DNA from: an uncultured Eubacterium sp.
Lineage (GTDB): Bacteria; Bacillota; Clostridia; Lachnospirales; Lachnospiraceae
Direction of reading: 5' to 3'
Assembly: GCA_947642745.1 (NCBI GenBank)
Contig: CANRTU010000010.1
Location: forward strand, 1-64,000
Length of the DNA stretch: 64,000 nt
The notes beneath the pieces were generated by a model, which was not told the origin of the DNA, did no database searches, and worked only from the letters and a program-made list of their open reading frames with translations. Below are positions 42,747 through 63,399 of this stretch, piece after piece. The translations under genes were made by a program, and so were the position numbers. The first letter of the stretch is position 1, and every line of letters starts with the position of its first letter.

Positions 42747-42832
42747 AACGGCTGCCGGATCACAATACAGGGACCGGCCATTGTGGCTGTCCGCAGTTGT
42801 ATTGTATGACAGAGAGTGCGGGGTATGAAAAG

Positions 42833-44692
42833 ATGGATATCAATCAGAATAAGGAAATGAGCCAAAATGTGACAGAAAAAATTACCGGACGGACTACTGA
42901 TACTACAAATACAGCAGCTGAAAAATGTTGTGATCCGGTTATGACAGATAAAAATTCCCGGGGGACTGGCAGAAAGTCTTTTATCATATGGATGCAGGGG
43001 CTGGGAAAACAGCCTGCGGAGATTATCAGCTGCGTGCTGGCTGTGGAGAAATGCGGGGTATTCGCCAACAGCCGCAGGCTGTTTTCCGGTAATATTTTAA
43101 GCCGGTGCAGTCCCAGACAGGCTGACCAGCTGTATCAGGATCTGACGGGCAATGAAGAATTTGTGGCCTGGAATGCTGTTCAGGGAGACCGGTGTCTGGC
43201 TGCCCTGGAAAAATATGTGGCGTTCTGCCATGCCCGTGATATTCAAAAGCCGGACGATTCCCCGGATGATAGTGAGACGCAGCCGGATCAGGCAGGCTGT
43301 ACGAAACACCCGGGAGAGCCGGTAAAAACCGGAGCAAACCATGCGGTCCGGCTGGAGGAGCCGGAAAAAAGTACCGGAACAGACCGGAAAAAAGCAGATA
43401 CATCCGGATTGCGGGAAAGCGGACAGATACAGACTGTTTTAATTCCGGAAGATGAAAATGCTGGTACAATAAAAGAAAACGGCCGGGAGGAATTATTAAA
43501 AGAAATCCACACAAAGATAGAAGATACGTTCCGGGAAGGCGCTACCTGTATTTATCTGGAACAGCTGATGCGGATGTATGGAAAACGACTGGCGGATATC
43601 ATGCAGATCCGCTGTCCGGGCGCCCTGAAAGAAAAGCTGCCGTCATTTCCAGGCGATGCTGCGGGCAGTCTCTGCTCATACATATACATGCCGCAAAGGA
43701 AGCCTGATCCCGGTCAGGATGTGATCCGCTGCGTGCGTGGGTATGCGGCGCCTGTGTCTTATGAAGAAGTGTGTAAAAAGCTGTGGTATATTCCGGAAAA
43801 TAAGACGAAACATATCCTGGCAGCAACGAAAGAGATCGTATGCGCAGGCACGGGAACTTATTTTTACGCTCCTGACCTGCCGGTACATACCTGGGAACTG
43901 GAAGAAATTACAGTGATGATAAATCAGCGGCTTTCCATAAGAGGCAGTATCACGGAAGCAGAACTAAAGGAACTGACCGGCAGATATTGTCCGGCTGTGT
44001 CTGGTAAAATAAACAGGTTTACACGAAGGGGGCTGTACAATGTGCTTGCGTATCTGCTGGGAGACGAGTTTTCTTTTCAGGGCAGAATGATAACGAAGCT
44101 TCGAAAAGACGACAGGGCAGAAGCATATGCCCGCTACTGTCGGGAACATGAGCGGCTTTCACTGGACGATATCAAAGCATTTGCGGCGGAAACAGGCGGC
44201 CGTATCTGCTGGGAAACTGTTCACAGTGAAATGGTCCGCGTTTCCGGGACGGAGTTTTTACGAAATGACCAGATCACATTTGACTGTGCGGCCATTGACG
44301 CCGTGCTGGAGGAAATATGTCCCGGACAATATATGCCGCTTGCGGATGCCGGTGTGTATGCCCATTTGCCAGTTATGGAAATAAAATGGAATGATTATCT
44401 GCTGGAAAGTTATGTGCGCCGGTTTAGTCAGGTCTTTCATCTGATGAGGCCGGATTCTGACATGGAGGACTGTTGCGGGGTCATTGTGCGCAGGGAGTCG
44501 TCTTTTGCGGATTATAATGCGTTAGTTGTGGACTTTCTTGCCCGTTCGGATGCGTGGAGCGGGACAAATGAAGCGGAACAGCTGCTTACAGGGCATGGAT
44601 TTATCAAAAAGAATCCGGGCGCCGGCCTGACGCAGACGATCCGGACCGCCCGTATACGCCGGATCGTTATGGGGAGCGCAAAGGAAGCATAA
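42833..44692 (+). CDS. Large protein of unknown function, paralogue of 23072-25330
   Basis: The 619-aa protein (start uncertain: 42806 is also in frame) matches the 752-aa protein from its second block on. Shared segments include WMQ...IISCVLAVEKCG and LYQDL.GNE near the N-terminus, a diverged low-complexity linker, EIHTKIEDTFREGATCIYL, the helical mid-region and the C-terminal LRNDQ...FLLESYV.RFS..VDFLARSDAW. It lacks the first domain of about 115 residues. No membrane helix or catalytic motif was recognised. It has its own promoter with a palindromic site. The two copies flank the glycan locus, so duplication of an accessory gene is likely. Confidence 0.72.
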   Translation: MDINQNKEMSQNVTEKITGRTTDTTNTAAEKCCDPVMTDKNSRGTGRKSFIIWMQGLGKQPAEIISCVLAVEKCGVFANSRRLFSGNILSRCSPRQADQLYQDLTGNEEFVAWNAVQGDRCLAALEKYVAFCHARDIQKPDDSPDDSETQPDQAGCTKHPGEPVKTGANHAVRLEEPEKSTGTDRKKADTSGLRESGQIQTVLIPEDENAGTIKENGREELLKEIHTKIEDTFREGATCIYLEQLMRMYGKRLADIMQIRCPGALKEKLPSFPGDAAGSLCSYIYMPQRKPDPGQDVIRCVRGYAAPVSYEEVCKKLWYIPENKTKHILAATKEIVCAGTGTYFYAPDLPVHTWELEEITVMINQRLSIRGSITEAELKELTGRYCPAVSGKINRFTRRGLYNVLAYLLGDEFSFQGRMITKLRKDDRAEAYARYCREHERLSLDDIKAFAAETGGRICWETVHSEMVRVSGTEFLRNDQITFDCAAIDAVLEEICPGQYMPLADAGVYAHLPVMEIKWNDYLLESYVRRFSQVFHLMRPDSDMEDCCGVIVRRESSFADYNALVVDFLARSDAWSGTNEAEQLLTGHGFIKKNPGAGLTQTIRTARIRRIVMGSAKEA

Positions 44693-47440: not shown

Positions 47441-48328
47441 ATGGTTATTAATAAACACAGTTCGTTTTATATGAGAAATGGCTGGGGAACAAAAATTATA
47501 CAGGCAGTTGATTTTGATCCGTATATTTTTTCACCGGGCAGGGAACAGGAGGCTGTTGATTATACCGGCCTTGGAAGGATTATGATAAAAGCGCTCAGAT
47601 ACTGGTCTGTTGCGATGGGGCTGACCAGAGAAAGTAAAGATCAGACAGGAATCGTACAGGAACAGACAGCTGTTTTTCAGGTACTTAAAAAGTCGGACAT
47701 ATATTTTCAGAGAAAAGGATCATTATTATTAATGCACAGAAACCTTTCACGGAACAAAGAAGAGGCGGCTGCCTGGTACTGGCTGTTTAATGAGTGGAAA
47801 AACGATACTATTTCAAAACAGCAGTTTTCAGATGCATTTTATCCATACCTTGCTGTAAACGGAATGAGTATTAAAAAAGCGGCAATTGATAAAGAGTATA
47901 ATTGTCTGAGAAATACATACATTGGTGATGAAAACTTTGATCTGCAAAAGATCATGGACGAAGACACCTATCCTTTTCTGGCGCCATTGAGAATATTGTA
48001 TGTTGATGATCGTAAAAAAGTTGTGAAACGTTCTCTTACGAAAAAAGATGTTCCGTCTGAAATACTTGTTTACTGTATTGCGATGGATAATATTGAAGAG
48101 AGCAGGAATGGCGCTTCTGTCAGTGTAGAAAAAATGGTGGAAGAAAATAACCAGGCAGGAAAATATTTTAATATGCAATACTCAAAACTGATCGAAGTAT
48201 TATTGGAAGCTGGGAATAAGGGATATATTTCATTAAATAATAACTTTGGTAACAGATACGTGGAATTTATGAATATAGATTACGCCCAGCTTCTGGATAA
48301 ATATTATATGGGCAGGCAGGAGTCATAA
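47441..48328 (+). CDS. DUF4007 family protein
   Basis: The 295-aa protein has the DUF4007 opening pattern: HSSFYMRNGWGTKIIQAV, then a D...EAVDYTGLGRIMIKALRYWSVAMGL block, in which a Leu/Gly segment precedes RYW. The rest is mostly helical with an acidic-basic mix. DUF4007 genes are found near sulfur-related DNA modification and large ATPase genes, but their biochemical role is not established to my knowledge. It is first in the defence operon, with CTGGAGG at 47424-47430 as ribosome site. Its stop overlaps the ATPase start (TAATG). I infer a DNA-binding or adaptor role for the next protein. Confidence 0.75.
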   Translation: MVINKHSSFYMRNGWGTKIIQAVDFDPYIFSPGREQEAVDYTGLGRIMIKALRYWSVAMGLTRESKDQTGIVQEQTAVFQVLKKSDIYFQRKGSLLLMHRNLSRNKEEAAAWYWLFNEWKNDTISKQQFSDAFYPYLAVNGMSIKKAAIDKEYNCLRNTYIGDENFDLQKIMDEDTYPFLAPLRILYVDDRKKVVKRSLTKKDVPSEILVYCIAMDNIEESRNGASVSVEKMVEENNQAGKYFNMQYSKLIEVLLEAGNKGYISLNNNFGNRYVEFMNIDYAQLLDKYYMGRQES

Positions 48329-51300
48329 TGAATTACGCAGAACTTATTACAGCAAAAAGAGACTATAAATATTCTGCAAATTTATGTTTCGATTTAAGAA
48401 ATGAAAACAGGCTGGCTGAATTTATACCTGACATTACAACTACGGAAATATTGGGCGAATATTTATATGGAATCATAAGCAAAACAAATGTACATTCCAG
48501 AATACTTTATGGTTCTTATGGAACAGGAAAGTCGCATCTTCTGACAGTTCTCTGCGCACTGTTGGGGCAAATAAATACAGACGGTAAAGCGTTTGAATCA
48601 TTTCTGGAATCGCTGGCAGAATATGACGCAGAGCTGGCTGGTTATATAAGGCTTTTTGTAAGTAATCAGAAACCTTATTTTGTTGTCCCGGTTTATTCTG
48701 ATCATAATGAATTTGACAGATGTATATCATTTTCATTAAAAAAAGAGTTTGCCAACCGGCACATTGACGTGTGTTTTAAAAGCAGTTTTCAGGAAGCGCT
48801 GGAGCTTCTGGAAACATGGGAAAATGGCAGAGAATCAGCTGGCCGGCTGAATGAGATTGTAAATGATATGAACATAGATCTGGAAGATTTAAAAAACGGC
48901 CTTTGTTATTATCGTGACGAAGATGAAAAAACTTTCAGGGAAATTTTCAGCCGCATGACATTTGGTGCAACATTTATAAGCCAGTCTGGCAGCCTGTCAG
49001 ATGATCTGGACACTGCCGGCAGACTGATTGCGGATGATTATCAGGGAATTGTTTTTGTATTCGATGAATTCGGAAGATATCTGGAAGATCAGAGAGAAAA
49101 GATTCGTGTAAAGAGTATTCAGGATCTGGCTGAATACTGTGATCATTCGGATTATAATACACATGTAATACTTGTTTCACATAAGCAGCTTTCACTTTAT
49201 ACAGAAAAAATGGGAAAGGGATTGAACGAGGAGTGGAAAAAAGTGGAAGGAAGGTTTCGGGCCACATCTGTCAATGCCAGATATGACCAGTGCCTCTCTC
49301 TGATTCCGCACATTATTCCAAAGACGGATAAGTGGCAGGTATTTAGCGCAAAATTCGAAAAAGAGCTGCAGCAGCTGTCCGGAAGGGCGTATGATTTTAA
49401 GGGATTTTTACATCCCGGGGATGGCAGAAATCCTTTTCTGGACGGGTTTCCACTGCATCCGGTATCATTGTTTGTATTAGAACGGCTGTCAAAACGGGTT
49501 GCGCAAAATGAAAGAACATTTTTTACATATCTGGTAAGTGATGAGGAAAATGCGCTGTTTAAGCAGCTGGAGCAATTTGACACGCAGGAATTTCATTTTG
49601 TGGGACTGGATCTTATTTATGATTACTTCGAGCAGAATATCAGATCATATTACCGGACAGATGAAATATATGAGACATACAAAAAACTCCAGTATGCCCT
49701 GAATAAATTACGCAGTGACGGGCCTGTCCGGACACAGATAAAAATATTAAAGACTATAGCTGTAATCAATATGATCGCAGATACTACGGTTCTGGCGTCC
49801 GACAGAGTCACATTAAAGTATGTGACAGATGAAAGGGAGACAGTCATTGATGAAGTTATTGATCAGCTGGAGCAAATGAAAATCATAAAATTTATGCGTC
49901 AGTATGGTTATTATGATTTCTTTGACAGTAGTGTTTATGATTTTGATGCCATGATCGAAGACAAAATCCGGGGTATTACAATGGAAATGGTTATAACAGA
50001 ATTAAACCAGCATTTTATTAATTTTGTTGTGTATCCATATGAGTATAACTTCAGGTACCATATGAAGCGGATCTTTATCCCGGTGTTTATACAGAATCAG
50101 AAGCTGAATAAAAATACAATTTTGAAAATGGTTCCCGGGTATTATGATGGATTACTTCTTATGGTATTTGATAGTGATTTTATAGAATCTGCCTATAAGA
50201 ATCCGGACGACTTGCCTGACAGAACTATTCTTCTGGTTAATACTTCTCCGGGAAATCTGATTCTGGAAGTAAAGAGATATATAGCAACGAAATATTTCTA
50301 TGCAATGCGGGAGGAATTGATAGAAAAAGATCCCGCAGCAGTCAGGGAACTGGAATTATATCTTGAAGAGCAGAAAAGTATTATTTTTGATATTATTCTG
50401 CAGTGGAGATCTTTTAGACTGACGGAAATCGTAACATATATTGGAGGAAAAAAGAAAACAGTTACAGATGGGAAAGTACTGTCGCAAGAAGCGTCTGCGC
50501 TTATGTTCCGTACTTTTTATAAAACTATAATCGTTAATAATGATGTCGTAAATAAAAATAACATATCTGGAACAATCAGATCATCCAGAAAGAAAGTAAT
50601 TGCGGCCATTATTGGTGAACAGGGAAGTATGGGACAGTTTTCACCGATGTCTCCGGAACATACAATGATCCGGTCTGTATTACAGAAAAATGGGTTTACC
50701 CGTAGAAGTGACGGGATAGAGCAGAATCTTTTTCCGCAAGAAGCCGGAACACTGTATGGAAAGTGTTCTGGTAAATATGTGAAATTGCAGATTACAGGTT
50801 TTTTCAGGGAGTGTACAAAAAATAAAAAGCCTTTAATTGAACTGATAAGGGTATTAAAACAGGAGCCATTCGGACTTAGAGATGGATATATTCCCCTGCT
50901 TCTGGCAGACGGACTCAAAGAATATCAGAATGTGGGAATTTATTTTCACAATGATGAGAAAGAGTATTCATCAGAAGAATTGTTAAAAGCGTGTGAAAAA
51001 CCTGAGGATTATTATATCAGTCTGGGAAACTGGACAAAAGAGCAGAATGAATATATAGACGGGCTGGAGGATATTTTCAAAAGTTATCTGACAAAAAATC
51101 CGGGGAACAGGCTGAAAGAACTGCTGGAAGCCATGAATGTTCATTATGCGTCCCTTCCAAAATTCGCCAGGGTTACGGAGAAATATGTATCAGAACCCGC
51201 AAAACGATACAGGCGGATTATGAGTATTTCACATAAAGATTATCATCAGTTTTTCTTCCAGGCTCTGCCGGAACTGGAAGGCGATCTGGTTTCTTTACTA

Positions 51301-51873
51301 CAGCTGATCAGACATATCTGCCGGGAACTGGAACATGCATTGCCAGATCAGAACCAGGAAGTGGAAAACAGCCTGCGTGAGATTCTGGAAACCGGACCGG
51401 AAGATCCGCTGGCGTCTGGTCTGGTAAAAAAATACGACGCTGGGTGGGTACAGAAAAAAACATATCATATAACAGATTACCAGACAAACGCTTTATTAAA
51501 ATACGTACAAACACTTTCTCCGGAAGAAGAAAGTAAAAAAGTAATAGAAAATCTGACGAGAATCGTGGCTGGTTTTGAAACAGATTATTGGAATGATTCA
51601 ACTATCGAAGATTTTCAAAACGGCCTGCGCCAGATAGCGGATCATCTGAATTCCAGTAGTGAAGAAAACGAAAGACTGACAGATAGTGAGTTTCAGCTGA
51701 TTGTAAAATCTTCAGAGGGTGAATCTGTAATATCAACATTTCATAAATGTGAGATGAGTCAGAATGGTCAGATCATGTTTAATAAAATTAAAAGTACAAT
51801 TCATAGTTTTGGGCAGAGTATTTCATATGAAGAAAAGATGGTGATACTGGCACAGCTTTTATCAGATTTATAA
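48328..51873 (+). CDS. Large P-loop ATPase, BrxC/PglY-like
   Basis: The 1181-aa protein has Walker A GSYGTGKS at residues 62-69 and Walker B VFVFDEFGRYLED near 242-254, followed by VILVSHKQLS as sensor region. The remaining 850 residues have no recognised enzymatic motif. Its size, the ATPase at the extreme N-terminus and the neighbours resemble BrxC/PglY-type ATPases of BREX systems or related giant ATPases. In BREX type 4 a BrxC-like ATPase is paired with a PAPS-reductase-like protein, as here. It lacks a coiled-coil SMC layout, so it is not DndD. It sits 19 bases before the PP-loop gene in the same operon. Confidence 0.75.
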   Translation: MNYAELITAKRDYKYSANLCFDLRNENRLAEFIPDITTTEILGEYLYGIISKTNVHSRILYGSYGTGKSHLLTVLCALLGQINTDGKAFESFLESLAEYDAELAGYIRLFVSNQKPYFVVPVYSDHNEFDRCISFSLKKEFANRHIDVCFKSSFQEALELLETWENGRESAGRLNEIVNDMNIDLEDLKNGLCYYRDEDEKTFREIFSRMTFGATFISQSGSLSDDLDTAGRLIADDYQGIVFVFDEFGRYLEDQREKIRVKSIQDLAEYCDHSDYNTHVILVSHKQLSLYTEKMGKGLNEEWKKVEGRFRATSVNARYDQCLSLIPHIIPKTDKWQVFSAKFEKELQQLSGRAYDFKGFLHPGDGRNPFLDGFPLHPVSLFVLERLSKRVAQNERTFFTYLVSDEENALFKQLEQFDTQEFHFVGLDLIYDYFEQNIRSYYRTDEIYETYKKLQYALNKLRSDGPVRTQIKILKTIAVINMIADTTVLASDRVTLKYVTDERETVIDEVIDQLEQMKIIKFMRQYGYYDFFDSSVYDFDAMIEDKIRGITMEMVITELNQHFINFVVYPYEYNFRYHMKRIFIPVFIQNQKLNKNTILKMVPGYYDGLLLMVFDSDFIESAYKNPDDLPDRTILLVNTSPGNLILEVKRYIATKYFYAMREELIEKDPAAVRELELYLEEQKSIIFDIILQWRSFRLTEIVTYIGGKKKTVTDGKVLSQEASALMFRTFYKTIIVNNDVVNKNNISGTIRSSRKKVIAAIIGEQGSMGQFSPMSPEHTMIRSVLQKNGFTRRSDGIEQNLFPQEAGTLYGKCSGKYVKLQITGFFRECTKNKKPLIELIRVLKQEPFGLRDGYIPLLLADGLKEYQNVGIYFHNDEKEYSSEELLKACEKPEDYYISLGNWTKEQNEYIDGLEDIFKSYLTKNPGNRLKELLEAMNVHYASLPKFARVTEKYVSEPAKRYRRIMSISHKDYHQFFFQALPELEGDLVSLLQLIRHICRELEHALPDQNQEVENSLREILETGPEDPLASGLVKKYDAGWVQKKTYHITDYQTNALLKYVQTLSPEEESKKVIENLTRIVAGFETDYWNDSTIEDFQNGLRQIADHLNSSSEENERLTDSEFQLIVKSSEGESVISTFHKCEMSQNGQIMFNKIKSTIHSFGQSISYEEKMVILAQLLSDL

Positions 51874-51892
51874 AATATAAAGGGGCAGGAGT

Positions 51893-53494
51893 ATGGTATT
51901 CTGGTGCCGGAAATGTAAAGAACCTGTGTTTGACAGGAAACTGCATGGAAAGACATGCGATGGTAACATGATAAAAATTTCAGGCGGGGTGATCTGTAAT
52001 CCTGTGTTTAAACAGGAGCGGAAACTGTTAAGCAGAATCACAGACATGGATCTGACAAATGAAAAGATCTGGTATCTGGGTTCCTGTAATTATTATTACA
52101 GAGAGCAGCTGATAAAAATTCCATATAAAAACTGGTTTAAGGAAAAAAAACATCTACAGATAGCTGGGGAGCTCCGCAGTGAAATAGAGATTGAGCAGGA
52201 TTATGATTTTTATATGGGGATTGTACGGGCTAATCTGAGTTATATTCAGCGGCTTGTCATGGAGGCTGAAACGTATGTGTCAGAAATAACGCAGCACTAT
52301 CGGGAACAGAATTATATTCCTACGGTATCATTCTCTGGCGGAAAGGATTCCACGGTAGTCAGCAGGATTGTAAGGGATGCGTTACATAATAATTCCATTG
52401 TTCATTTTTTTGGAGATACTACACTTGAGTTTCCGGAAACCTATAACTACGTAATGGAAAAATTCAGATATGAAAACCCGGCCGTTCCGGTGATTTCCAG
52501 TGAATCAGAAAAGGATTTTTTTCAGCTTTGCAGGGTATTTGGGCCGCCAAGCCAGCATGAGCGCTGGTGCTGTACCATTTTTAAAACCAGTAATCTTGGT
52601 AAGGAACAGGAATATTTACCAGGCAACAGCCTTTCATTTCTTGGAATCCGCCATAGTGAGTCTGTCGCAAGAAAGAAATATGAAAGGACACAGGAAGATT
52701 CAAAAATTTCCAGCCAGGTGAACGCAATGCCAGTGATTGAATGGAAAGATTATGATGTATGGCTGTATATTCTATATAAAAATCTGAATGTAAATGACTG
52801 TTATCAGCTGGGATATAAACGTGTCGGATGCTGGTGCTGTCCGAATAATTCTGACTGGTCAATGATGCTCACAGAAATTTATCATCCGCAGGACATGATG
52901 AAATGGAAGGACATGATATATGAATTTGCGTTAAAAACGGGCAAGGATGAGCCGGACGATTACTACGAAGAAGGGCGGTGGAGAGTCAGGCGGGGAGCCA
53001 GCGGTCTGGAAGTTAAAAATGTAACAATCCGTGATACAGCCTGTAATCTGTCGGACCGGGCAAGGAATATTATTGCTGGCAGAAAGTTACAGAAAGATGT
53101 ACTGGAATTTTTTAAACCGCTGGGTGATTTAAGAATCATTGAAAAGTCTGATGCTGTTTACATAGATGTATATGATGTGGATAAGTCTGGGACGTACCGG
53201 AAATGCTTTTCTATGGTACTATCGTTTGGAACGAATGTATTAAAGGTTTTACCGGAAGCAAGGATAGATGTGCCCAATCTGGTTAACAGACTCAAATGCC
53301 AGCTGAGAAAATATCAGTTCTGCATCAGATGTTCTGCCTGTGACTCTGTCTGTCCTTATGGAGCGATAGATACGATTCACGGACGTTATACGGTTGATAC
53401 AGATAAATGCAGGCATTGTAAAAAATGTATCGCCAAATTTTATAATGGCTGTATTATATGTGATAAAGTTGCGGGGAAGAAGGAAGACCAATGA
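51893..53494 (+). CDS. PP-loop (PAPS-reductase/DndC-type) protein with zinc-ribbon-like and ferredoxin domains
   Basis: The 533-aa protein has three parts. Cys residues 5, 8, 22 and 35 suggest an N-terminal zinc ribbon. The PAPS-reductase domain (about 140-400) carries the ATP-pyrophosphatase loop SGGKDS at 148-153 and Cys residues at 226-227 and 313/315/316 that could hold an Fe-S cluster, as in DndC. The C-terminus (477-533) is ferredoxin-like: C-x2-C-x2-C-x3-C-P, then C-x2-C-x2-C and two further Cys. It would activate the DNA backbone or a carrier with ATP and insert sulfur. The fused ferredoxin could deliver electrons. It overlaps the desulfurase gene by four bases. Confidence 0.82.
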   Translation: MVFWCRKCKEPVFDRKLHGKTCDGNMIKISGGVICNPVFKQERKLLSRITDMDLTNEKIWYLGSCNYYYREQLIKIPYKNWFKEKKHLQIAGELRSEIEIEQDYDFYMGIVRANLSYIQRLVMEAETYVSEITQHYREQNYIPTVSFSGGKDSTVVSRIVRDALHNNSIVHFFGDTTLEFPETYNYVMEKFRYENPAVPVISSESEKDFFQLCRVFGPPSQHERWCCTIFKTSNLGKEQEYLPGNSLSFLGIRHSESVARKKYERTQEDSKISSQVNAMPVIEWKDYDVWLYILYKNLNVNDCYQLGYKRVGCWCCPNNSDWSMMLTEIYHPQDMMKWKDMIYEFALKTGKDEPDDYYEEGRWRVRRGASGLEVKNVTIRDTACNLSDRARNIIAGRKLQKDVLEFFKPLGDLRIIEKSDAVYIDVYDVDKSGTYRKCFSMVLSFGTNVLKVLPEARIDVPNLVNRLKCQLRKYQFCIRCSACDSVCPYGAIDTIHGRYTVDTDKCRHCKKCIAKFYNGCIICDKVAGKKEDQ

Positions 53495-54615
53495 TTTATT
53501 TTGACAATGCCGCTACTACCAGATATAAACCGGTGGAAGTATATAAAGCATTTGAATACTATATGAGAGAAATCGGTGTCAGTCCTGGAAGGGGAAGTTA
53601 CAGCCTGGGAATCAGGGCGTCAAGACTTCTCTACCAGACCCGGAAAAAAACCGGGAGCTATTTTGGATTAAAACAGCCAGAAAATGTAGTTTTTACAAAA
53701 AATTCCACAGAGGCTATCAATCTTTTTTTTAACGGATTTCTCAAAAAGGGTGACCATGTGGTGATTACCTGCTATGAACATAATGCGGTATTAAGGACTT
53801 TACAGAAATTAAAAGACGATAAAAAAATTGAATATTCTGTTATCCGCAGGGAAGATCTTGCCAGGGAACCCTGGGAAATATTTGATAAATATTGTAAGGC
53901 GGATACCAGGGTGTTTGCGTCAACATTGTCAAGTAATCTGACTGGAAGAATAATTTTCAGAGAAGATATTTTCCGTTTTATGCAGAATAAAGGAATTACT
54001 ACTTTTATGGATGCGTCCCAGGGAGCCGGAAAACTGCGGATTGAAATGGAACGGCAGGGAGTCGGTTATCTGGCGTTTACCGGACATAAAGATCTGATGG
54101 CTTTTCCGGGGGTAGGAGGATTATGCTGCAGTCACAAAGATAGCATAAAGCCTCTGATTCAGGGAGGAACCGGATTGTCCGGAGATACCTACACAAACCC
54201 GGATATTTTTCCCGAAGGACTTGAAGCAGGCACGCTAAACATGCCCGCGATCTGGTCGTTAAACAGTGCGATCGGATATGTGGAAAAGCATGAAGCTATG
54301 TTAAAAGAAAAAGATCGTTTATTAAGAGAATATTTAATAAATAAATTAAGTGTGATTAAAAATATTGAAATATATGATCAGGATTATCCAGGGGTAGGTG
54401 TGGTCAGTTTTAATATCAATGGATATTCATCAGCGGAAATTGTCGGAAAACTGGATCAGAACGGAATTTGTGTCAGAGGCGGCATACATTGCGCCATACT
54501 TTCGCATGAAGCGCTGAATACTGCATCGAAAGGAGCAGTCAGGGTTAGTTTTAGCGGGCAGAATACCAGGGAGGAAATCGGAGAACTGGTACGCATATTA
54601 AAAGAATGTAGGTGA
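53491..54615 (+). CDS. Cysteine desulfurase (class V aminotransferase fold)
   Basis: The 374-aa PLP enzyme takes sulfur from cysteine. The motifs are MIYFDNAATT, CYEHNAV (His 97), FMDASQ (Asp 174) and TGHK with PLP Lys 200. The persulfide Cys is probably C334 in RGGIHC. It resembles SufS/Csd-type desulfurases rather than classical IscS. Its position directly after the DndC-like gene and before a DUF3343 gene makes it the DndA-equivalent sulfur donor for DNA modification. It is translationally coupled on both sides. Confidence 0.88.
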   Translation: MIYFDNAATTRYKPVEVYKAFEYYMREIGVSPGRGSYSLGIRASRLLYQTRKKTGSYFGLKQPENVVFTKNSTEAINLFFNGFLKKGDHVVITCYEHNAVLRTLQKLKDDKKIEYSVIRREDLAREPWEIFDKYCKADTRVFASTLSSNLTGRIIFREDIFRFMQNKGITTFMDASQGAGKLRIEMERQGVGYLAFTGHKDLMAFPGVGGLCCSHKDSIKPLIQGGTGLSGDTYTNPDIFPEGLEAGTLNMPAIWSLNSAIGYVEKHEAMLKEKDRLLREYLINKLSVIKNIEIYDQDYPGVGVVSFNINGYSSAEIVGKLDQNGICVRGGIHCAILSHEALNTASKGAVRVSFSGQNTREEIGELVRILKECR

Positions 54616-54620
54616 TCGGT

Positions 54621-54833
54621 ATGTTTATAGTATTTTTTAGTACCAGTGATGTATTTGCGGCGGAAGAGATATTTCATAGCCATGGCATAGCGTGCGAGAT
54701 AGTTCCCACGCCTGTTACAGATAAAGCATATTGCGGGGTCTGTCTGAAAGCGGGGAAAGGAACAGATACAGGATTGCTGGGCGGGTCTGAGTACCAGATT
54801 ATTGAGGAGGGTGAATATGTGCAGGTTTATTGA
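54621..54833 (+). CDS. DUF3343 family small protein, probable sulfur carrier
   Basis: The 70-aa protein reads MFIVFFSTSDVFAAEE, then a Pro/Thr turn (IVPTPV) and AYCGVCLKA, two Cys residues spaced by two. This is the DUF3343 pattern, a family common beside cysteine desulfurases and TusA/YedF-type proteins in anaerobes. The CxxC could accept persulfide. The ATG at 54621 follows AGGTG (54610-54614). The frame extends upstream to a GTG at 54612 but without a ribosome site. Placement between desulfurase and dptF suggests that it hands sulfur to the PP-loop protein, which is inference. Confidence 0.75.
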   Translation: MFIVFFSTSDVFAAEEIFHSHGIACEIVPTPVTDKAYCGVCLKAGKGTDTGLLGGSEYQIIEEGEYVQVY

Positions 54834-56592
54834 TGAAATGGAAAAATTAAAAAGTTCATCCAGCTCATCAGTAGCGAACGAAAAGTTTTCTGCTTTTAAT
54901 GGATATATGCATATTTTTTCTAAAATGGATGAGAGGCTCTCTGATGTAATCCGGAAGGCAGCCGGATATAAAAAATCGCTTGTACTTGTATGCGGAAATT
55001 CAGGGGATGGAAAATCACATCTGATCGCCAGTCTGATTGATGAGCAGATCATTGATCAGAGCCGGTTTGATATATATATAGATGCTACATCAAGTGATAA
55101 AAAGGGAATGAAAGCAAATGTAAAACTGAGGGAAAAGCTGGAGCCGTTTACCGATACCAATATTCTGGATGGTAGTGAATACCGGATGATTGTCGCAATT
55201 AATCTGGGCGTGTTGAATGATTTTATGAAAAACTATGAAGATGAGTTTTGCGTCATTCAGAATTATATCAATCAACAGGGACTGTTTGATAATATTCCGG
55301 CGTGGAAATTTATAGAAATGCAGAAGCAGCGGGATCATATAGACCAGTATTTTATTGGGCATGTTGATTTTACATCATTTCACAGATATGAACTGAATGC
55401 CAGCGGGCTGGAGCTTTCATTTATACATGGGTTACTGGAGAAAATCATAGCGGATGATTCTGCTAACAGCATGTATCAGGCATTTCAGCAGGAATGTGCC
55501 GGATGCCCCAAAAGAGTCAGCTGTCCGGTTTACTGGAATTACAGTGCTTTTATAAAGGACAGCAGGATCAGGGATTATGTAATTACAATACTTGCTAAGG
55601 CGATTATAAAAAATAATCTGTCTCCTTCTGTAAGAGATATTAATAATTTTTTTTATGAAGTCATAATAGGAAATACATTCAGCAGTTCCATGACAGACGT
55701 AAGATCGGTGGAGCGGCAGGCGCATTTTATACACAATCTGACATTATGGCTGTTATTTGAGTCTTCTGACGGACTGCTGGCTTACACGGCAAAAGAAGAT
55801 CCGTTAAATGATCCGGAAAGAAGTTGTGATGGACAGATTATATCCCTGAATCTGAAACGTGATCTGAAAAAATGGCTGACCGAAGAGGCAGTGCCAGGCA
55901 ATGATCTTTTTAAACAGATCTATTCCAATATTATTTTTTGCGAGAGTAAATTTGCGAAAGTATACCGGGATAATGAAAGAAATATAAAAAGGGATATATA
56001 TAAATATTATATCCGGTACTGCCAGATGGAACATCCGGTAAAAGACGACAGATTTTCTGGTTTTTTAAAAATATTATATGAATATAACAGAGGAAATGAA
56101 AAAGCATGCGCAAAACTCATCAGTCTGATCAAAGACTGTGTTTATCTGTGGAATGGCAGGCTTGGGGATAAGTCTGGAGGTATTATTAAAAACGGAGTGA
56201 TATTCGCAAAAGGAACAGATAAATATTTTCTATATAAAAATATAGAAGTCCAGTTTATCAGAAATCCAAAGATAAAACTGATTTGTGATGAAGAAGAATT
56301 TCCTAATTTTACAACAACCATGCGGTTTAATTTTGCATTGGATAAACGATCGAAGAAAATAATAACGTTAGATATTGATTATGAGCTCTATGCATTTTTG
56401 TTAGAAGTAAAAAGGGGTTATACGCCTACGGACAGTGACAGAAAAGCAAATGTAAAATATGATTCTTTTGTAAGAAATCTGATTGCTGGTTCTGACAGTG
56501 ATCTGTATGTTTATGCCAAATCTGGAAAAGGGGATACATATAAAATCTCATGTGACGAGTTTGACAGATATGTATTTGAGCGTGAGGGATGA
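54817..56592 (+). CDS. dptF: DptF, ATPase of phosphorothioation-dependent restriction
   Basis: The 591-aa protein matches DptF (DndF): it opens LKSSSSSSVANEKFSAFNGYMHI, has Walker A GNSGDGKS at 60-67 and then FDIYIDATSSDKKG and IVAINLGVLNDF, all typical. A Cys-rich CAGCPKRVSC patch lies near residue 230. DptF acts with DptG and DptH to restrict DNA lacking phosphorothioate, probably using ATP hydrolysis in target search or signalling. The start at 54817 follows GAGGAGGG (54804-54811) and overlaps the DUF3343 gene by 17 bases. The dptG start overlaps its stop. Confidence 0.88.
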   Translation: MCRFIDEMEKLKSSSSSSVANEKFSAFNGYMHIFSKMDERLSDVIRKAAGYKKSLVLVCGNSGDGKSHLIASLIDEQIIDQSRFDIYIDATSSDKKGMKANVKLREKLEPFTDTNILDGSEYRMIVAINLGVLNDFMKNYEDEFCVIQNYINQQGLFDNIPAWKFIEMQKQRDHIDQYFIGHVDFTSFHRYELNASGLELSFIHGLLEKIIADDSANSMYQAFQQECAGCPKRVSCPVYWNYSAFIKDSRIRDYVITILAKAIIKNNLSPSVRDINNFFYEVIIGNTFSSSMTDVRSVERQAHFIHNLTLWLLFESSDGLLAYTAKEDPLNDPERSCDGQIISLNLKRDLKKWLTEEAVPGNDLFKQIYSNIIFCESKFAKVYRDNERNIKRDIYKYYIRYCQMEHPVKDDRFSGFLKILYEYNRGNEKACAKLISLIKDCVYLWNGRLGDKSGGIIKNGVIFAKGTDKYFLYKNIEVQFIRNPKIKLICDEEEFPNFTTTMRFNFALDKRSKKIITLDIDYELYAFLLEVKRGYTPTDSDRKANVKYDSFVRNLIAGSDSDLYVYAKSGKGDTYKISCDEFDRYVFEREG

Positions 56593-56594
56593 TT

Positions 56595-58064
56595 ATGGAA
56601 AAATTTGTCTTTGATCAGGAAATTTTCAGACAGAAATTTGTAAATAGTGATGGAATTCGTAATAAAGCGAAAAATAACCAGCCAGGTCTGGATAGTATCT
56701 GTCCGGTAGACAGTAATAAGAAAAATACATATCAGGGGTATAAATCAGGTGAATTGCTGGCGGATTCTTTGCACAATATTCTGGGAATGGTCTTTGATGT
56801 CAGGGAAGACAGGAATATAAAAGAGGATTTGTTTAATACGATTGGAAATATGATAAGTTATGAGACGGATGATTTGAAAGATGTCTTTATGGATCTGATG
56901 AAGTCAATGTATTTTGAAAGCAATGTGGAAAATAATACGAATGGGTTAGCATTGCTCCGTTATCAGCCGGCCAGCAGACAGAAAGATTTTGGAAAGCTGG
57001 TTGTAGATGTACTGATGGATGATCAGACAAAGAAGAGACTGCTGGAAATACTGGAAAGTGACAGTAATCCTTTGGATGAGATTGTGAATCAGGCCTATCT
57101 GGAATTAAATATATTGAAAAACTTAAAGCAGGATATAGAATATATACCTGTATTTAAGGAGGAACTGGCGGATCTGTTTACTGTTATGAATATGGATTTT
57201 CGAAGTGCTCTGGACAGTCAGACGGATACACAGGCGGAGATTGGTTTTTTGTTGTCCTATTATCTGTTTATCTATTTGTCACAGATTGCGATCCGCCTTG
57301 ATAATGATCTGGCTGACATGAAAAGTGAAAATACCTTTCCCTATTTTAAGGGAGCACGGGAAGCGGTTTCAGAAGACAGGGATTGTGTGGCGCATGGATG
57401 GCGTATGATAGAAAGAAAGACACGGAAAGTATTTAAACACCTGGTAGTTTTGAATATGCTCAACTGCCATGATCATTCTGTGCCATATTATTCATATTCA
57501 GACTTGTTTGAGATGTATGATAAATTTCCTGAACAAAGAGCGGATATGGATCAGGCAGTGGATTATCTGATCAGACAGTATACGAAAGAGTATCGTCATC
57601 TTTCAGATATACCTGGTGAAAATATAGATTTTTCCGGCATTATTCTGGAACAGACGGGAGAACCGTCCGCTGATTATCAGGCAAAAGTAAAATATCTGTA
57701 CGAATGTGTATCCTGCCAGCTGGATGGAAAGAAGTCCCGTGTGGCTGTTGTTTCTTATGTTGCCAGTAATTATAATCATATTTTAAAAATGAGGTTTGTT
57801 AAGCGCTGGGGGCAGATGGGACATATGATGATGATTTCAAACGATGATCTGGTACTGATGATACAGATCTGTCAGAGGTCCTCTGTGAAAACAGATCCTG
57901 AAAGAGGGATTCCCATCCGGGATTTATTTGAAGAATTTAACAGAAGAGGTCTTTGCATGGATGGAAAGACCCGGCAGTATATCATTGACTATCTGATTGA
58001 TATAAACCTGATCGACAGTAAGTGCGATAGTGAGGAGGCACAGTATGTCAGACGAATACAATAA
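56595..58064 (+). CDS. dptG: DptG, phosphorothioation-dependent restriction protein
   Basis: The 489-aa protein lies between dptF and dptH and fits DptG in length and in segments such as YKSGELLADSLHNILG near residue 50 and SYYLFIYLSQIAIRLDND near 225. It has no known catalytic motif and is mostly helical. It is a required partner in the restriction complex, but its role is unknown. An ATG at 56589 overlaps the dptF stop; 56595 has the better spacing from GAGGG (56584-56588). It overlaps dptH by 20 bases. Confidence 0.78.
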   Translation: MEKFVFDQEIFRQKFVNSDGIRNKAKNNQPGLDSICPVDSNKKNTYQGYKSGELLADSLHNILGMVFDVREDRNIKEDLFNTIGNMISYETDDLKDVFMDLMKSMYFESNVENNTNGLALLRYQPASRQKDFGKLVVDVLMDDQTKKRLLEILESDSNPLDEIVNQAYLELNILKNLKQDIEYIPVFKEELADLFTVMNMDFRSALDSQTDTQAEIGFLLSYYLFIYLSQIAIRLDNDLADMKSENTFPYFKGAREAVSEDRDCVAHGWRMIERKTRKVFKHLVVLNMLNCHDHSVPYYSYSDLFEMYDKFPEQRADMDQAVDYLIRQYTKEYRHLSDIPGENIDFSGIILEQTGEPSADYQAKVKYLYECVSCQLDGKKSRVAVVSYVASNYNHILKMRFVKRWGQMGHMMMISNDDLVLMIQICQRSSVKTDPERGIPIRDLFEEFNRRGLCMDGKTRQYIIDYLIDINLIDSKCDSEEAQYVRRIQ

Positions 58065-61000
58065 TGTAAAATACCTGCAAAAGTATATGATACATAAAAT
58101 CGCAGAGTATTTTGCAAGAAATACTGATAATTTAACGAGCCGTTATGTGCTGAATTTTGACAGTCTGGAAAATATTGTAATGTTTGATCGGGAATTAAGG
58201 GCGATGCTGAAAAACGAGTCCGAAATAGATGATCTGCGTGACAGAACGGGTAATCCGAATCTGGTGTTTAAAATACGTATGCCATATGTGTTTTATAATG
58301 ATGAGGGCGGAGTGGAGTACGAGGCCACGCAGGTTGAAATCGGAAATACCACTGCAGCCAGAAATATAGTGTTTATACCAGATTGCGATCAGAACTTTGA
58401 ATTATTAGGGGATGCTTTTAAAAATTGTATCAGAAATAAATTTGTGGATGATCAGGAGGATAAAATCCTCTTTTATCTTTCTGTGCAGAATATTGCCAGT
58501 GTATTAAAGACAACCGAAAATTTTCAGAAACAGGGAATGCCTTTGTCTATAGATTGTGTATTTAAAGACCTGAAGTCCCAGGCGGCAATTATCCAGACAG
58601 AAAATCAGTTTAAAACCGTTTTGTACGCATTAAATAAAATCAAAGCCAATAAACCTGTCAGCGACCATTCGCTGATGGAATTTGCGCCTGTTATAAGAAT
58701 CATCGAGGCACAAAAACTGGAGCAGGTAGATTTTCATGATCTGCATATGTTTCAGATGTCTCTGGCAGATGTGGGAAAAAAGGATAGCAAACTGGCAGAA
58801 AATTATAAACTGTATCGTGATATTTCACTGGCGCTGGAAGACCAGGAACTGGATACGGTAATGTATGCGTTTGATAAGAAAATTATATCAGATATACAAA
58901 AGGCTTATGAAAATGATAAAAATAACTGGGATTCTAAAATTAATTTTGACCAGATTCTGAAACATAAACTGGCAGATCAGAAAAAATTCAAGATAGAACA
59001 GCCTGTACTTGTACTGGATGCAGAAGATAATGAGCTGGATCATGGTTATTATCTGAATTTTAAGAAAGGCAGTACAGAAGCGTTTATTATAGAAACAAAA
59101 AATTATCCGAAAAAGAAAAGTTTCAAAATAGATGTAAAATTTACCCAGAAGGCAGGTGCGAAATGGGATACTTTCCGGGCAGACCAGGAAAATACAAGAG
59201 GGACGTATTATAAAATTATTATAGAGGCGGCCGGATACTGCCAGACTGGGAAAGTAATATTTACCGGAGGTAAAGAAAATAAAACATTCACCATGTTGAT
59301 TACAGTCATAGATGTTCCACAGGGTTTTCTGGCAGCTTCCTGTATCGGGGTATCAATGAAAAGAAATGTGTTCTGGTATAAACTTCGTGCGACGGATTAT
59401 GCCGTTTTGTTAGGAGAGCGTGGGGAGAAGACAGAAATAAAAGCAGATGTAAGGGATAATTCCGTACCGCTTCCTGTCAATACGGCATATCAGACTAAGA
59501 TTTTGTTTTCTTATCCGGAAGATGAAGTGGTCAAAGACCGGGATTTTACACTGAATCTGGATGACAATTCGGCTTTACTGAATGTTTCTGTAAAATTTGA
59601 AGAAAGTTCACTGAAAACACTTGATATTTATTCATTATTTAATAAATGCTATGTATATCACGACACGTTTGAGTTAGTGGATGGCAGGCTTGAAAACAAG
59701 CATAAGAGAAGTGAGAAGTTTGTTACAGAAGAGTTTATAGCCGCAGGAAGGAAGTATTCACTGCAGAAATTGTTAATGCTGGAAGACGAAATGATCCGGT
59801 GTAAGTATAAATGTGTAACAACGATGGGTCTGGAGCAGGCAAAAGAAACTGATTGTGAGATTCCTGAGGATGTGGAAACAGCATATAACAATATTTGTGA
59901 ATATTATATAAATGCGAATACAATCCCTTCGGCAAGTATGCCGGATAAAGAATTAACAGGATTGTATCAGGCATATATAAATGTTGTATTAAATTATATT
60001 CATGAGAATAGTACCTGGTTTCAGGATAAACAGCCTCTTTTAACAGAGATACTGAATCTGTTTCATCTGGGTTCTGTCAGGGATTCCGACGGACTGGTGT
60101 GGTTATCGCCGCTTAGTCCTCTCAGTATTGCGTATCAGTATGAACTTTGTGAGGAGAAGAATAAATGGATGGATATAGACCAGTATCTGTATACAAGTCT
60201 TGGCTCAGGTAATCTTATGCCGTTTCTGACTGATGCGCAGGGTTCGGTGTTACAGTATGTAAAAGGAAATTATCCGTTGCAATGGTCATGCTATTATAAC
60301 GCAAAGCGGTCCGTAAAAGGTGATGTGGATACATATTGCCAGAAAATAGAAGATTATTATAACAAATTCAGTTACTTATTTGATGAGATACCAAATGCTG
60401 CGTTTAAAATAAATATTATAGGAATACCACATACTTCTGAAATAATCAGAGCCTTTTTTAAATTATTCAGGTCAAAAAAGATAAATGAAAATATGTTTGC
60501 GGTAGAAATAAATTATTATTTTACCGGGACTGGAAATAATGAATTTGACAGAATGTCAGATTATGACTATGTATATCATCTGGCTTGTCAGTATTTTGGA
60601 TCCAGGAATACAGAGACAGCGGAAGCATTCTGTAACTGGTATTATGAAAAAGTAAAATATTATGCACGTTTTGACGATGATCAATATGAATATGCGCATA
60701 TTACATTCTGTACAATCCAGGATAGTGACCAGTCCATGCATTTAAACACAATATCGGATGCAAAGTCCGGCATTATGCTCAATGGCCTGATATCCGATGT
60801 GCCGTCTTCACTGGATAAAAACAGTGGAATTTATAAATACGGTTTTGGGGCACAGTACGCAAAGGAACTGATCAAAGACTCTTTATTGCTGCAACTGGCG
60901 AATGGGTATAATGAACTGGCAGACTGCAGACCCGGCAGTCCGGCAGCCAGAAATCTGAGTATAGCGCAGGGAGTGCAGAATACGCAGTCGGAAAAATTAA

Positions 61001-63399
61001 GTAAAATTTATAAAAGTTCCAACTGGGTTGTTTTTGTAGAACCTAAGATTGATCTGGATTTTTTTATAGAGCAGAGTGATACCGGTAAGGATCTGATCAT
61101 TATTCACTATCCAGACAAAAATGTTACTTCCAGTGGATATTCGTCTATTACTGTAACACAGAAATCCCATCAGTATGTGGAAGTGATTAAAGAATATCTG
61201 GAACCAGTAGTTTCCGCAGATGCTGGCAGCCTGGATATAAAACGTATTATTAAAAATTTTAATGCGTTTAGTGGAGAATGGCTGATGAACTTTATCAACA
61301 ATAACCAGATAGACGAAAAAATAAGTCTTGTATCAGCAATTGCATTCTGCAGAAAGTATTTTGAGCTTATTTATTCTGAATATGTATGGGTGCCGGTTGC
61401 CCTGGATGAGGTGCTGCGTGTGACAGGCGCTATTGGCGGGTCACTGACAAATGTATTATTTTCAAAAAAGGTTTTAATTTGCAGAGGAATTATAGAATCA
61501 CAGAATGCGACATCCGATGATCTGTTAATGGCTGGGATAAAAATTGTGGATAAAGAAGTCTTTATCACATATATTCCTGTGGAAGTGAAGCATGGAAAGT
61601 GTTCACCGGATACCAGAAGAGAGGCCCATAGCCAGGTATGTAATACAGCGTATCTGTTAAGAAAATCTTTTCTGAATCCGGAAGAGCTGGAGGCCGCAGG
61701 CGTGGAGGCGATTGATCGTAAAATATATCGTAATTATATGATTCAGCATGTGGTGTCCAATATAGAGAAAATGCTGGCATATAAAATCGCAGGGCCGCAG
61801 GAACCTTACCAGAAAATTATAGATTCTGAGATCAGGATCAGGCTGCTGAATGACCAGTATACATTAGAGCTTTCTTTTGATACAGATGCGTATGCGTTTT
61901 ATTTTGCGGAAGGGCAGAATACAGTCGCCAGATCCCGGAACGCAGTGGATAAAGTAATCGAAATTTCGGCTCCGCTTACAATGATGTATGAATTTCTGGC
62001 AGATACTGACAGGGTGGATAAAGAAGTAAAAGCCCTGGAAGAATCAGATTTACTGTCAGATCAGACAATTTATGACATTAATGTTCCGGAAGAAGAAAGC
62101 GATCCGGAAGCGGATGATCAGGAGGGTGACCTGGAGTCAGAAGCCCTTGAGCAGGAAATATCTGAACTGATGCATGAGTCTGAACTGATACATGATAAAG
62201 AGGAGCGGCAGGCAGAGAAGGATCATGTGACTGGTACGTCTGAACAACACAGAGAAGAAAAAGCTGTACCAGATCATGAGGAATCCGGAATCCGGATACT
62301 GATTGGCACAGATGCAGCCAGAAATAAAATATACTGGGAGTTTGGAAATAAAAGTCTGGCAAACAGGCATCTGCTGATTACCGGAACCTCGGGACAGGGA
62401 AAGACGTACAGCATACAGACAATGTTATATGAACTTTCAGCATCAGGTGTGCCAGCTGTTATTTTTGACTACACGGAAGGATTTATGAAGACGCAGCTGG
62501 AGAAAATATTTGTAGATGAACTGGGTGACAGGATCAATGAACATATTGTGTACAGCGTGGGAGTCCCGATAAATCCGTTTGCCCGGCATGAGATCGAAAT
62601 CGCTGGAATGATTGTAAAGGAAAAACCGGCTGATGTGGCATCCAGGCTGGCGGATATTTTCGCACATGTATATGATTTTGGCGACCAGCAGTATTCTGCT
62701 ATTTTTACTGCGGCATTAAACGGAATCATTTCTTATGGGGATCACATGAGCATGAGACATTTCCAGAGTGAACTGGAACAGGTTCAGGAAAGTAACAAAG
62801 CGGCTAAGACAGTGATATCCAAAATGGAGCCTTTTTTTCATACGATATCCTTTGATGGAAATCATGAATTTGACTGGGGAAAAATATTGTATGGAGAGGA
62901 AATGGCGATTAACATTTTCCAGCTGACCCTGATTAACCGTGAAATGCAGGTAATTATTACAGAGCTGATGCTGTGGGACGCATGGTATTATACAAAGAAA
63001 TACGGAAATAAGGATAAGCCATTTGTAACAGTGCTGGATGAGGCACAGAATCTGTCCCACAAATCAGGTTCTCCAAGTGCGGTGATTCTCACAGAGGGCA
63101 GAAAGTTCGGCTGGTCGGCCTGGTTTGCGACCCAGTCATTAAAAATATTAAAAGATGAAGAGGTTGTAAGGCTGCTGCAGGTAGCATTTAAATTATATTT
63201 CAAACCTACCGATGACGAAATCGTAAAAATTGCGAAACAGCTGGATCCAACCGGTGAGAGTAACTGGACACGGGAAGTAAAAAATCTGAAAAAAGGAACC
63301 TGTATCGTAGCGGGAGACAGAATGAAACCAGATGGTACTTTTGGAGGTACACAGCCTGCGGTGGTTTCCGTGGAAGCATTAGAAACAAGAATAAAATAA
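58045..63399 (+). CDS. dptH: DptH, large HerA-like ATPase/helicase of phosphorothioation-dependent restriction
   Basis: The 1784-aa protein has the size and C-terminal ATPase of DptH (DndH). Walker A GTSGQGKT lies near residues 1446-1453 and Walker B FVTVLDEAQN near 1660-1669, followed by EGRKFGWSAWFATQSL, a HerA/FtsK-type segment. An acidic linker (about 1345-1405) separates the ATPase from the large N-terminal region, which has no recognised domain but would hold DNA recognition. It is thought to translocate on or unwind DNA as part of host-protective restriction. The start at 58045 is set by GAGGAGG (58032-58038). It is the last clear gene of the island. Confidence 0.88.
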   Translation: MSDEYNNVKYLQKYMIHKIAEYFARNTDNLTSRYVLNFDSLENIVMFDRELRAMLKNESEIDDLRDRTGNPNLVFKIRMPYVFYNDEGGVEYEATQVEIGNTTAARNIVFIPDCDQNFELLGDAFKNCIRNKFVDDQEDKILFYLSVQNIASVLKTTENFQKQGMPLSIDCVFKDLKSQAAIIQTENQFKTVLYALNKIKANKPVSDHSLMEFAPVIRIIEAQKLEQVDFHDLHMFQMSLADVGKKDSKLAENYKLYRDISLALEDQELDTVMYAFDKKIISDIQKAYENDKNNWDSKINFDQILKHKLADQKKFKIEQPVLVLDAEDNELDHGYYLNFKKGSTEAFIIETKNYPKKKSFKIDVKFTQKAGAKWDTFRADQENTRGTYYKIIIEAAGYCQTGKVIFTGGKENKTFTMLITVIDVPQGFLAASCIGVSMKRNVFWYKLRATDYAVLLGERGEKTEIKADVRDNSVPLPVNTAYQTKILFSYPEDEVVKDRDFTLNLDDNSALLNVSVKFEESSLKTLDIYSLFNKCYVYHDTFELVDGRLENKHKRSEKFVTEEFIAAGRKYSLQKLLMLEDEMIRCKYKCVTTMGLEQAKETDCEIPEDVETAYNNICEYYINANTIPSASMPDKELTGLYQAYINVVLNYIHENSTWFQDKQPLLTEILNLFHLGSVRDSDGLVWLSPLSPLSIAYQYELCEEKNKWMDIDQYLYTSLGSGNLMPFLTDAQGSVLQYVKGNYPLQWSCYYNAKRSVKGDVDTYCQKIEDYYNKFSYLFDEIPNAAFKINIIGIPHTSEIIRAFFKLFRSKKINENMFAVEINYYFTGTGNNEFDRMSDYDYVYHLACQYFGSRNTETAEAFCNWYYEKVKYYARFDDDQYEYAHITFCTIQDSDQSMHLNTISDAKSGIMLNGLISDVPSSLDKNSGIYKYGFGAQYAKELIKDSLLLQLANGYNELADCRPGSPAARNLSIAQGVQNTQSEKLSKIYKSSNWVVFVEPKIDLDFFIEQSDTGKDLIIIHYPDKNVTSSGYSSITVTQKSHQYVEVIKEYLEPVVSADAGSLDIKRIIKNFNAFSGEWLMNFINNNQIDEKISLVSAIAFCRKYFELIYSEYVWVPVALDEVLRVTGAIGGSLTNVLFSKKVLICRGIIESQNATSDDLLMAGIKIVDKEVFITYIPVEVKHGKCSPDTRREAHSQVCNTAYLLRKSFLNPEELEAAGVEAIDRKIYRNYMIQHVVSNIEKMLAYKIAGPQEPYQKIIDSEIRIRLLNDQYTLELSFDTDAYAFYFAEGQNTVARSRNAVDKVIEISAPLTMMYEFLADTDRVDKEVKALEESDLLSDQTIYDINVPEEESDPEADDQEGDLESEALEQEISELMHESELIHDKEERQAEKDHVTGTSEQHREEKAVPDHEESGIRILIGTDAARNKIYWEFGNKSLANRHLLITGTSGQGKTYSIQTMLYELSASGVPAVIFDYTEGFMKTQLEKIFVDELGDRINEHIVYSVGVPINPFARHEIEIAGMIVKEKPADVASRLADIFAHVYDFGDQQYSAIFTAALNGIISYGDHMSMRHFQSELEQVQESNKAAKTVISKMEPFFHTISFDGNHEFDWGKILYGEEMAINIFQLTLINREMQVIITELMLWDAWYYTKKYGNKDKPFVTVLDEAQNLSHKSGSPSAVILTEGRKFGWSAWFATQSLKILKDEEVVRLLQVAFKLYFKPTDDEIVKIAKQLDPTGESNWTREVKNLKKGTCIVAGDRMKPDGTFGGTQPAVVSVEALETRIK

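Follow-up and report, generated by a model that had tools for sequence, protein, structure and literature searches.

An Ssp-type phosphorothioation writer likely joined to a DptFGH effector in an uncultured Eubacterium

We propose that eight adjacent genes of an uncultured Eubacterium sp. encode what is likely a single restriction-modification system, composed of an Ssp-type DNA phosphorothioation writer and the effector DptFGH (DndFGH). The genes lie in what we call the window, the whole stretch of 64,000 nucleotides that was analysed (GenBank assembly GCA_947642745.1, contig CANRTU010000010.1, positions 1 to 64,000). The literature examined describes DndFGH together with marks made by dnd genes and gives SspE or SspFGH as the partner of Ssp writers (PMC11662687). 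Judging from sequence, we put at roughly 0.75 the probability that the two halves form one system, that its predicted mark protects self DNA, and that a DndFGH effector has here changed its writer. This proposal is based on the profile matches of all eight proteins, the spacing of the genes, the recurrence of the operon, metagenomic ties between its halves, a separate clade of DptF, the retention of catalytic residues, and the lack of PglZ, and of DndD above its cut-off, in the three genomes with the operon.

Organization of the operon

Eight open reading frames occupy positions 47441–63399 of the + strand, with successive spacings of -1, 19, -4, 5, -17, -4 and -35. An earlier reading of the DNA from its letters alone (the sequence-only reading) had described eight tightly coupled genes here, and both its coordinates and its gene content hold, the spacings ranging from -35 to 19. 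The features are as follows.

47441..48328, + strand: SspB (DUF4007), predicted DNA-binding/nicking writer subunit (Pfam DUF4007, PADLOC SspB, fold)
48328..51873, + strand: SspC, BrxC-like ATPase (PADLOC SspC; Walker A/B)
51893..53494, + strand: SspD/BrxP-type PP-loop ATP pyrophosphatase with a C-terminal 4Fe-4S ferredoxin-type domain (PAPS_reduct, Fer4, PADLOC)
53491..54615, + strand: SspA/DndA-type cysteine desulfurase (TIGR01977, PADLOC SspA/DndA, motifs)
54621..54833, + strand: Se/S-carrier-like small protein, proposed persulfide carrier (PF11823; YCGVC)
54817..56592, + strand: DptF (DndF), P-loop effector subunit (TIGR03238, PADLOC DndF, Walker A)
56589..58064, + strand: DptG (DndG), predicted DNA-binding subunit (TIGR03236, PADLOC DndG, PDB 7exx)
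58030..63399, + strand: DptH (DndH), nuclease (D-ExK) with a HerA/FtsK-type motor (PADLOC DndH, residues)

The start of DptF is most likely ATG 54817 rather than TTG 54802, because the protein read from there can be aligned with its homologues from one end to the other. DptH may start at 58030 or at 58045.

The effector half

The last three genes match DptF, DptG and DptH, as the sequence-only reading had recognized, and the first two of these exceed their NCBIfam cut-offs. DptF scores 125.2 bits with TIGR03238 (cut-off 50) and 314 with the PADLOC DndF model and has the Walker A motif GNSGDGKS, and DptG scores 88.2 bits with TIGR03236 (cut-off 20) and 198 with PADLOC DndG. DptG also matches the solved DndG 7exx in sequence (E 5.6e-8), and its structural model is nearest to the same entry by fold (E 3.8e-12, TMq 0.61, 18% identity, root-mean-square deviation 7.1). 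The PADLOC DndH model matches DptH with 830 bits over nearly its full length, and D1163, E1185, K1187, the Walker A motif at 1452 and D1670-E1671 are all kept. The sole match of an Ssp effector model in genes 6–8 is that of SspF on DptF (E 0.04). DndG and SspB are reportedly related; in our fold search neither solved structure was among the 50 matches listed for the other.

A set of 64 other DptH has 166 conserved columns, and 122 of these, including the D-ExK and HerA Walker residues, are retained in all three DptH proteins linked to Ssp writers (the window's is one of them). Near 1028-1039 the three proteins differ at five residues that 58 to 64 members of the set share. A phmmer search with DptH residues 1-400 matched no dnd-linked DptH, and the nearest matches of the motor outside the Ssp-linked clade are the dnd-linked L078 (567 bits) and L062 (565 bits), far above the dnd median of 28; the motor thus has a history of its own. 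SspFGH is said in the literature to share no sequence homology with DndFGH. An effector resembling SspFGH at L125:8503-17409 (genome G936) nevertheless has, in its H subunit, a motor like that of DndH (PADLOC DndH 252 bits; the motor of the window 349 bits).

The writer half

The writer is of the Ssp type and only akin to type-4 BREX, as judged from its sequence. The DUF4007 protein noted in the sequence-only reading is SspB (Pfam DUF4007 163.6 bits, cut-off 27; PADLOC SspB 129 bits); its predicted model (pLDDT 88.6) is nearest to 6lb9/6juf, solved SspB structures (TMq 0.80, 22% identity), and DUF4007 occurs only once in the window's genome. SspC carries the Walker A motif GSYGTGKS and the Walker B motif VFVFDEF. 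Whether the frame at 48328-51873 might be a known DndD variant was also checked, and this candidate was ruled out: the protein matches the PADLOC SspC model (330 bits) and not DndD. The ferredoxin-fused PP-loop enzyme is confirmed by PAPS_reduct (110.9 bits) and Fer4 (27.6 bits) and contains SGGKDS, and a subset of SspD proteins bearing a ferredoxin domain has been described (PMC12839542).

In PADLOC this enzyme does score best with BrxP (266 bits, versus 49 for SspD and 30 for DndC), as the suggested resemblance to type-4 BREX would have it. In the rest of the modification half SspB, SspC and SspA are identified by profile, and the genome lacks PglZ. Type-4 BREX is nevertheless known to share homologues of SspB, SspC and SspD and often a cysteine desulfurase (PMC12839542), so the operon might be viewed as type-4 BREX in a divergent form, with DptFGH taking the place of PglZ and BrxL. 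PglZ, which is retained in all 457 type-4 taxa surveyed in the same paper, was found in none of three genomes (the window's, which is 88% complete, and those of the two relatives described below), and SspC fits its model far better than that of BrxC (97 bits). The neighbours of 16 related writers are Pbe, SspFGH or other genes (no search for PglZ or BrxL was made in these loci). No operon gene matched BrxL, for which the genome was not searched. The absence of PglZ led us to reject an assignment of the operon to type-4 BREX, and we consider the divergent form quite unlikely.

The desulfurase scores 136 bits with PADLOC SspA and 135 with DndA, models that do not tell the two apart, and 343 bits with TIGR01977, below the NCBIfam cut-off of 377; its TGHK and RGGIHC motifs are present. 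It also scores 249 bits with the selenocysteine lyase model, and the small protein (70 residues, YCGVC) belongs to the Se/S-carrier family (PF11823 38.8 bits, cut-off 25), as would be expected of passengers that serve selenium or general sulfur metabolism. SspA and DndA, however, belong to known phosphorothioation systems, and the two genes lie directly behind sspBCD in all six loci of this writer clade, which makes passengers very improbable. A homologue of the carrier gene is present in 6/6 loci of the clade, in 0/14 other Ssp loci and in 0/78 other DptF loci.

No dndB, dndD or dndE is present in the operon, and the profiles bear out the proposal that DptFGH is accompanied here by a writer without DndD and DndE. 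Genome-wide, DndD exceeded its cut-off in none of the three genomes, the window's being an 88% complete assembly, and weak matches below the cut-off occur in two of them; DndE was not searched for genome-wide. Thus the possibility of dndBCDE elsewhere in the genome of the window was rejected, on DndD as the only one of these genes searched for. Genes 6–8 match DptFGH in place of an SspE or SspFGH effector (the genome was not searched for SspE).

Recurrence of the operon and survey of DptF

The neighbourhood survey called for by the sequence-only reading found the complete set of eight genes, ordered as in the window, in Butyrivibrio sp. VCD2006 and in a Coprococcus metagenome-assembled genome. 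Gene by gene, identity to the window is 46-72%, and an order shared with two other genomes is more than chance would give. Scanning genome contigs with a DptF alignment yielded 294 relatives, of which the best 80 were kept: 49 of these loci are dnd-linked (the flanks contain at least one of dndB-E with a score of 40 bits or more), 2 are Ssp-linked and 29 are neither within the fetched flanks. Within the family, only 6 of 397 genomes contain a DptF, those of the other five being 26-31% identical to that of the window, and the close form occurs in 1 of 79 and 1 of 5 genomes in the two relatives' genera, namely in those relatives themselves. The close form of DptF is rare in species genomes. Viral contigs contained no DptF, phages one distant match (26.5%) and plasmids four distant matches.

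In metagenomes, 79 clusters (including the window's own) are at 45% identity or more to the window DptF. Linkage was scored when the exact length of a cluster's longest contig was shared with an SspB or SspD cluster, among the 120 listed of 593 SspB clusters and the 120 listed of 6493 SspD clusters. At least 12 of the 66 close DptF clusters with contigs of 6 kb or more were tied in this way, one of them being the Butyrivibrio VCD2006 contig already counted, against 0 of 20 distant DptF clusters and a shifted-length control with a mean of 0.2 and a maximum of 2. A tie by exact lengths is indirect, and the count is a lower bound.

Phylogeny and the case for one system

A quick tree of 79 DptF rows, built with a simple model and drawn from its midpoint, places the three Ssp-linked sequences in one clade with a stem of 1.26 changes per site and a support of 100. 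Support is 91 for the fork at which this clade meets 19 rows from Clostridia (17 dnd-linked, 2 with cut flanks). We read a single long-stemmed clade beside dnd-linked Clostridia as the outcome of one switch of writer, after which DptF diverged fast, the direction of the switch being our inference. In the writer tree the window falls outside the other five loci (support 89), and a single clade of DptFGH-linked writers is not rejected (p-AU 0.064; SspB alone 0.29, SspD alone 0.52).

Several observations weigh against the view that the operon is one system. DptH scores 298 bits with TIGR03237, under the NCBIfam cut-off of 621. The writer trees allow more than one time of pairing and more than one order of effector exchange. 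Furthermore, 54 of the 66 close DptF clusters are not tied to the 120 SspB and 120 SspD clusters listed, and the window's SspB cluster is listed on 23 contigs and its SspD cluster on 16, against 1 for its DptF cluster (P0229, P0109 and P0002), so near strains may carry the writer with another effector. DptFGH has also been proposed to act standalone and to be often decoupled from a writer (PMC10853773). The operon could hold two neighbouring defences that act independently of each other, namely an Ssp writer with another partner and a standalone DptFGH, as the 29 writerless loci among the best 80 and the other effectors that accompany the same writer elsewhere would permit. Part of the writerless class is a flank effect, however, given that 15 of the 29 loci have cut flanks (14 have full ones) and that L030 and L032 were classed differently although their DptF are identical. 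The genes of the window overlap in one operon whose order is common to three genomes, and the DptF clade is specific to the pairing in this sample. We therefore regard two separate defences as unlikely and favor one system formed by the Ssp writer and DptFGH.

The ten neighbours inspected in 7 of the 14 writerless loci with full flanks include no clear new writer. Among full-flank DptFGH loci in which no dnd or ssp writer was found we record L016, L019, L063, L064, L070, L076 and L081; in L076 a type II restriction enzyme and a methylase lie on either side of DptFGH.

Related writers with other effectors

Among the fetched loci, the closest writers without DptFGH are those of G724, G572 and G396, genomes assigned to Ruminiclostridium sufflavum, [Clostridium] fimetarium and Anaerobium acetethylicum, in which the B-C-D-A-carrier order is followed by PbeA and PbeC. 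The five-gene writer of the window is 51-73% identical by gene to that of G724. Of the 13 more distant Ssp writers in the tree, 5 are followed by PbeA (in one of these the sequence did not extend to PbeC), 2 by SspF, 4 by a single protein of 713-794 residues and 2 by other genes; the four single proteins have weak HEC matches, and two of them also match SspE weakly. Altogether PbeA stands behind 8 of the 19 Ssp writers in the tree, with PbeC seen behind 7. Loci in which an Ssp writer is followed by PbeA are L119, L126, L148-L151, L158-L160 and L162, a pairing for which the available portions of the open-access literature gave no description.

In both relatives the gene that follows DptH encodes an HNH nuclease, and in three Pbe loci one is found two or three genes behind PbeC (L002:18544-19548, L003:18530-19549, L148:6883-7884, L126:3387-4274 and L151:2010-2909). 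The HNH protein of G572 shares 63% and 59% identity with its DptFGH-linked counterparts but 42% and 40% with the other Pbe-linked ones. No HNH gene lies next to DptH in the window.

Surroundings of the operon

The G+C content of the operon is 38.8%, compared with 47.4% upstream and 48.1% downstream on the same contig, which upholds the difference in composition noted earlier. Horizontal acquisition, which had been suggested on this basis, fits the drop in G+C and a break in synteny with relatives; an empty site, sought through synteny with the stretches of five relatives, was not found, nor was the left border, and synteny picks up again at about contig position 68165. A promoter scan did no better than shuffled sequence (62 versus 57.1). 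Between 46850 and 64000 there are 20 terminator-like hairpins (9.4 in shuffles), nearly all within operon genes. Two large reading frames of the window, 42797-44692 and 23072-25330, are related (65% and 42% identity over parts), and the former has no Pfam match.

Proposed mechanism and implications

We envisage that SspA would take sulfur from cysteine and that the YCGVC protein likely carries it to SspD. SspD would activate a DNA phosphate with ATP and insert the sulfur, aided by its Fe-S domain, at a site picked and perhaps nicked by SspB, and SspC would provide ATP-driven DNA handling. DndFGH assembles at 2:2:1 into a translocating and nicking complex, whose ATP hydrolysis, and with it translocation, is repressed by phosphorothioates (PMC11662687). 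DptF-DptG-DptH of the window would likewise bind unmarked DNA, translocate and nick it, and be held back by the mark, in line with what has been reported of DndFGH and marks made by dnd genes. The phosphorothioates that Ssp writers make are on a single strand, and SspFGH harms cells that lack the mark (PMC8092258). The effector probably switched from dndBCDE to an Ssp cassette and then diverged to fit.

Each half of the operon has known counterparts; the novelty lies in their pairing, in the carrier and in the separate clade of DptFGH. A search of the open-access literature (its scope excluding subscription papers, preprints and supplements) found no description of an Ssp writer with DndFGH, and thus no earlier account of this exact arrangement. 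The available portions of PMC8092258, PMC10853773, PMC12839542, PMC11931770, PMC10470545, PMC11662687, PMC12904381, PMC3226654 and PMC7464106 do not describe it.

DndFGH without dnd genes is a puzzle: more than 60% of Bacillus strains carry DndFGH alone, from which modifying systems yet to be discovered were inferred (PMC7464106). A natural operon joining Ssp genes to DndFGH offers one answer for one clade. We think the chances even that a DndFGH subfamily has been re-tuned to the Ssp mark and that phosphorothioate writers and effectors behave as interchangeable cassettes, the five-gene writer, which has its own sulfur carrier, being combined with DptFGH in some loci and with PbeA-PbeC in others, and related HNH genes following at a distance. 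If so, some "orphan" DndFGH may be guarded by writers that are missed in searches for dnd genes. The predicted Ssp mark would likely shield self DNA from a cutter that elsewhere answers to another marker, and the operon provides a matched pair for asking what DndFGH reads, be it sulfur, motif, or single- versus double-strand marking.

Comparison with known systems

The operon resembles SspABCD with SspE or SspFGH in its writer, where SspB, SspC and SspA are recognized by profile and SspB also by fold, but differs in having DptFGH as effector, a ferredoxin-fused BrxP-like SspD and an extra Se/S-carrier-like gene. With DndABCDE-DndFGH it shares the effector proteins DptF, DptG and DptH, whose catalytic residues are kept, whereas it is without dndB, dndD and dndE, has an Ssp-type writer, and has a DptF that forms a separate, diverged clade. 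Type-4 BREX (BrxP, BrxC, PglZ, BrxL, DUF4007) is similar in its BrxP-like Fe-S PP-loop enzyme, BrxC-like ATPase and DUF4007 protein; unlike it, the operon has DptFGH, and its genome no PglZ. Finally, the Ssp-Pbe loci of G724, G572 and G396 have the same B-C-D-A-carrier writer but carry PbeA and PbeC where the operon has DptFGH.

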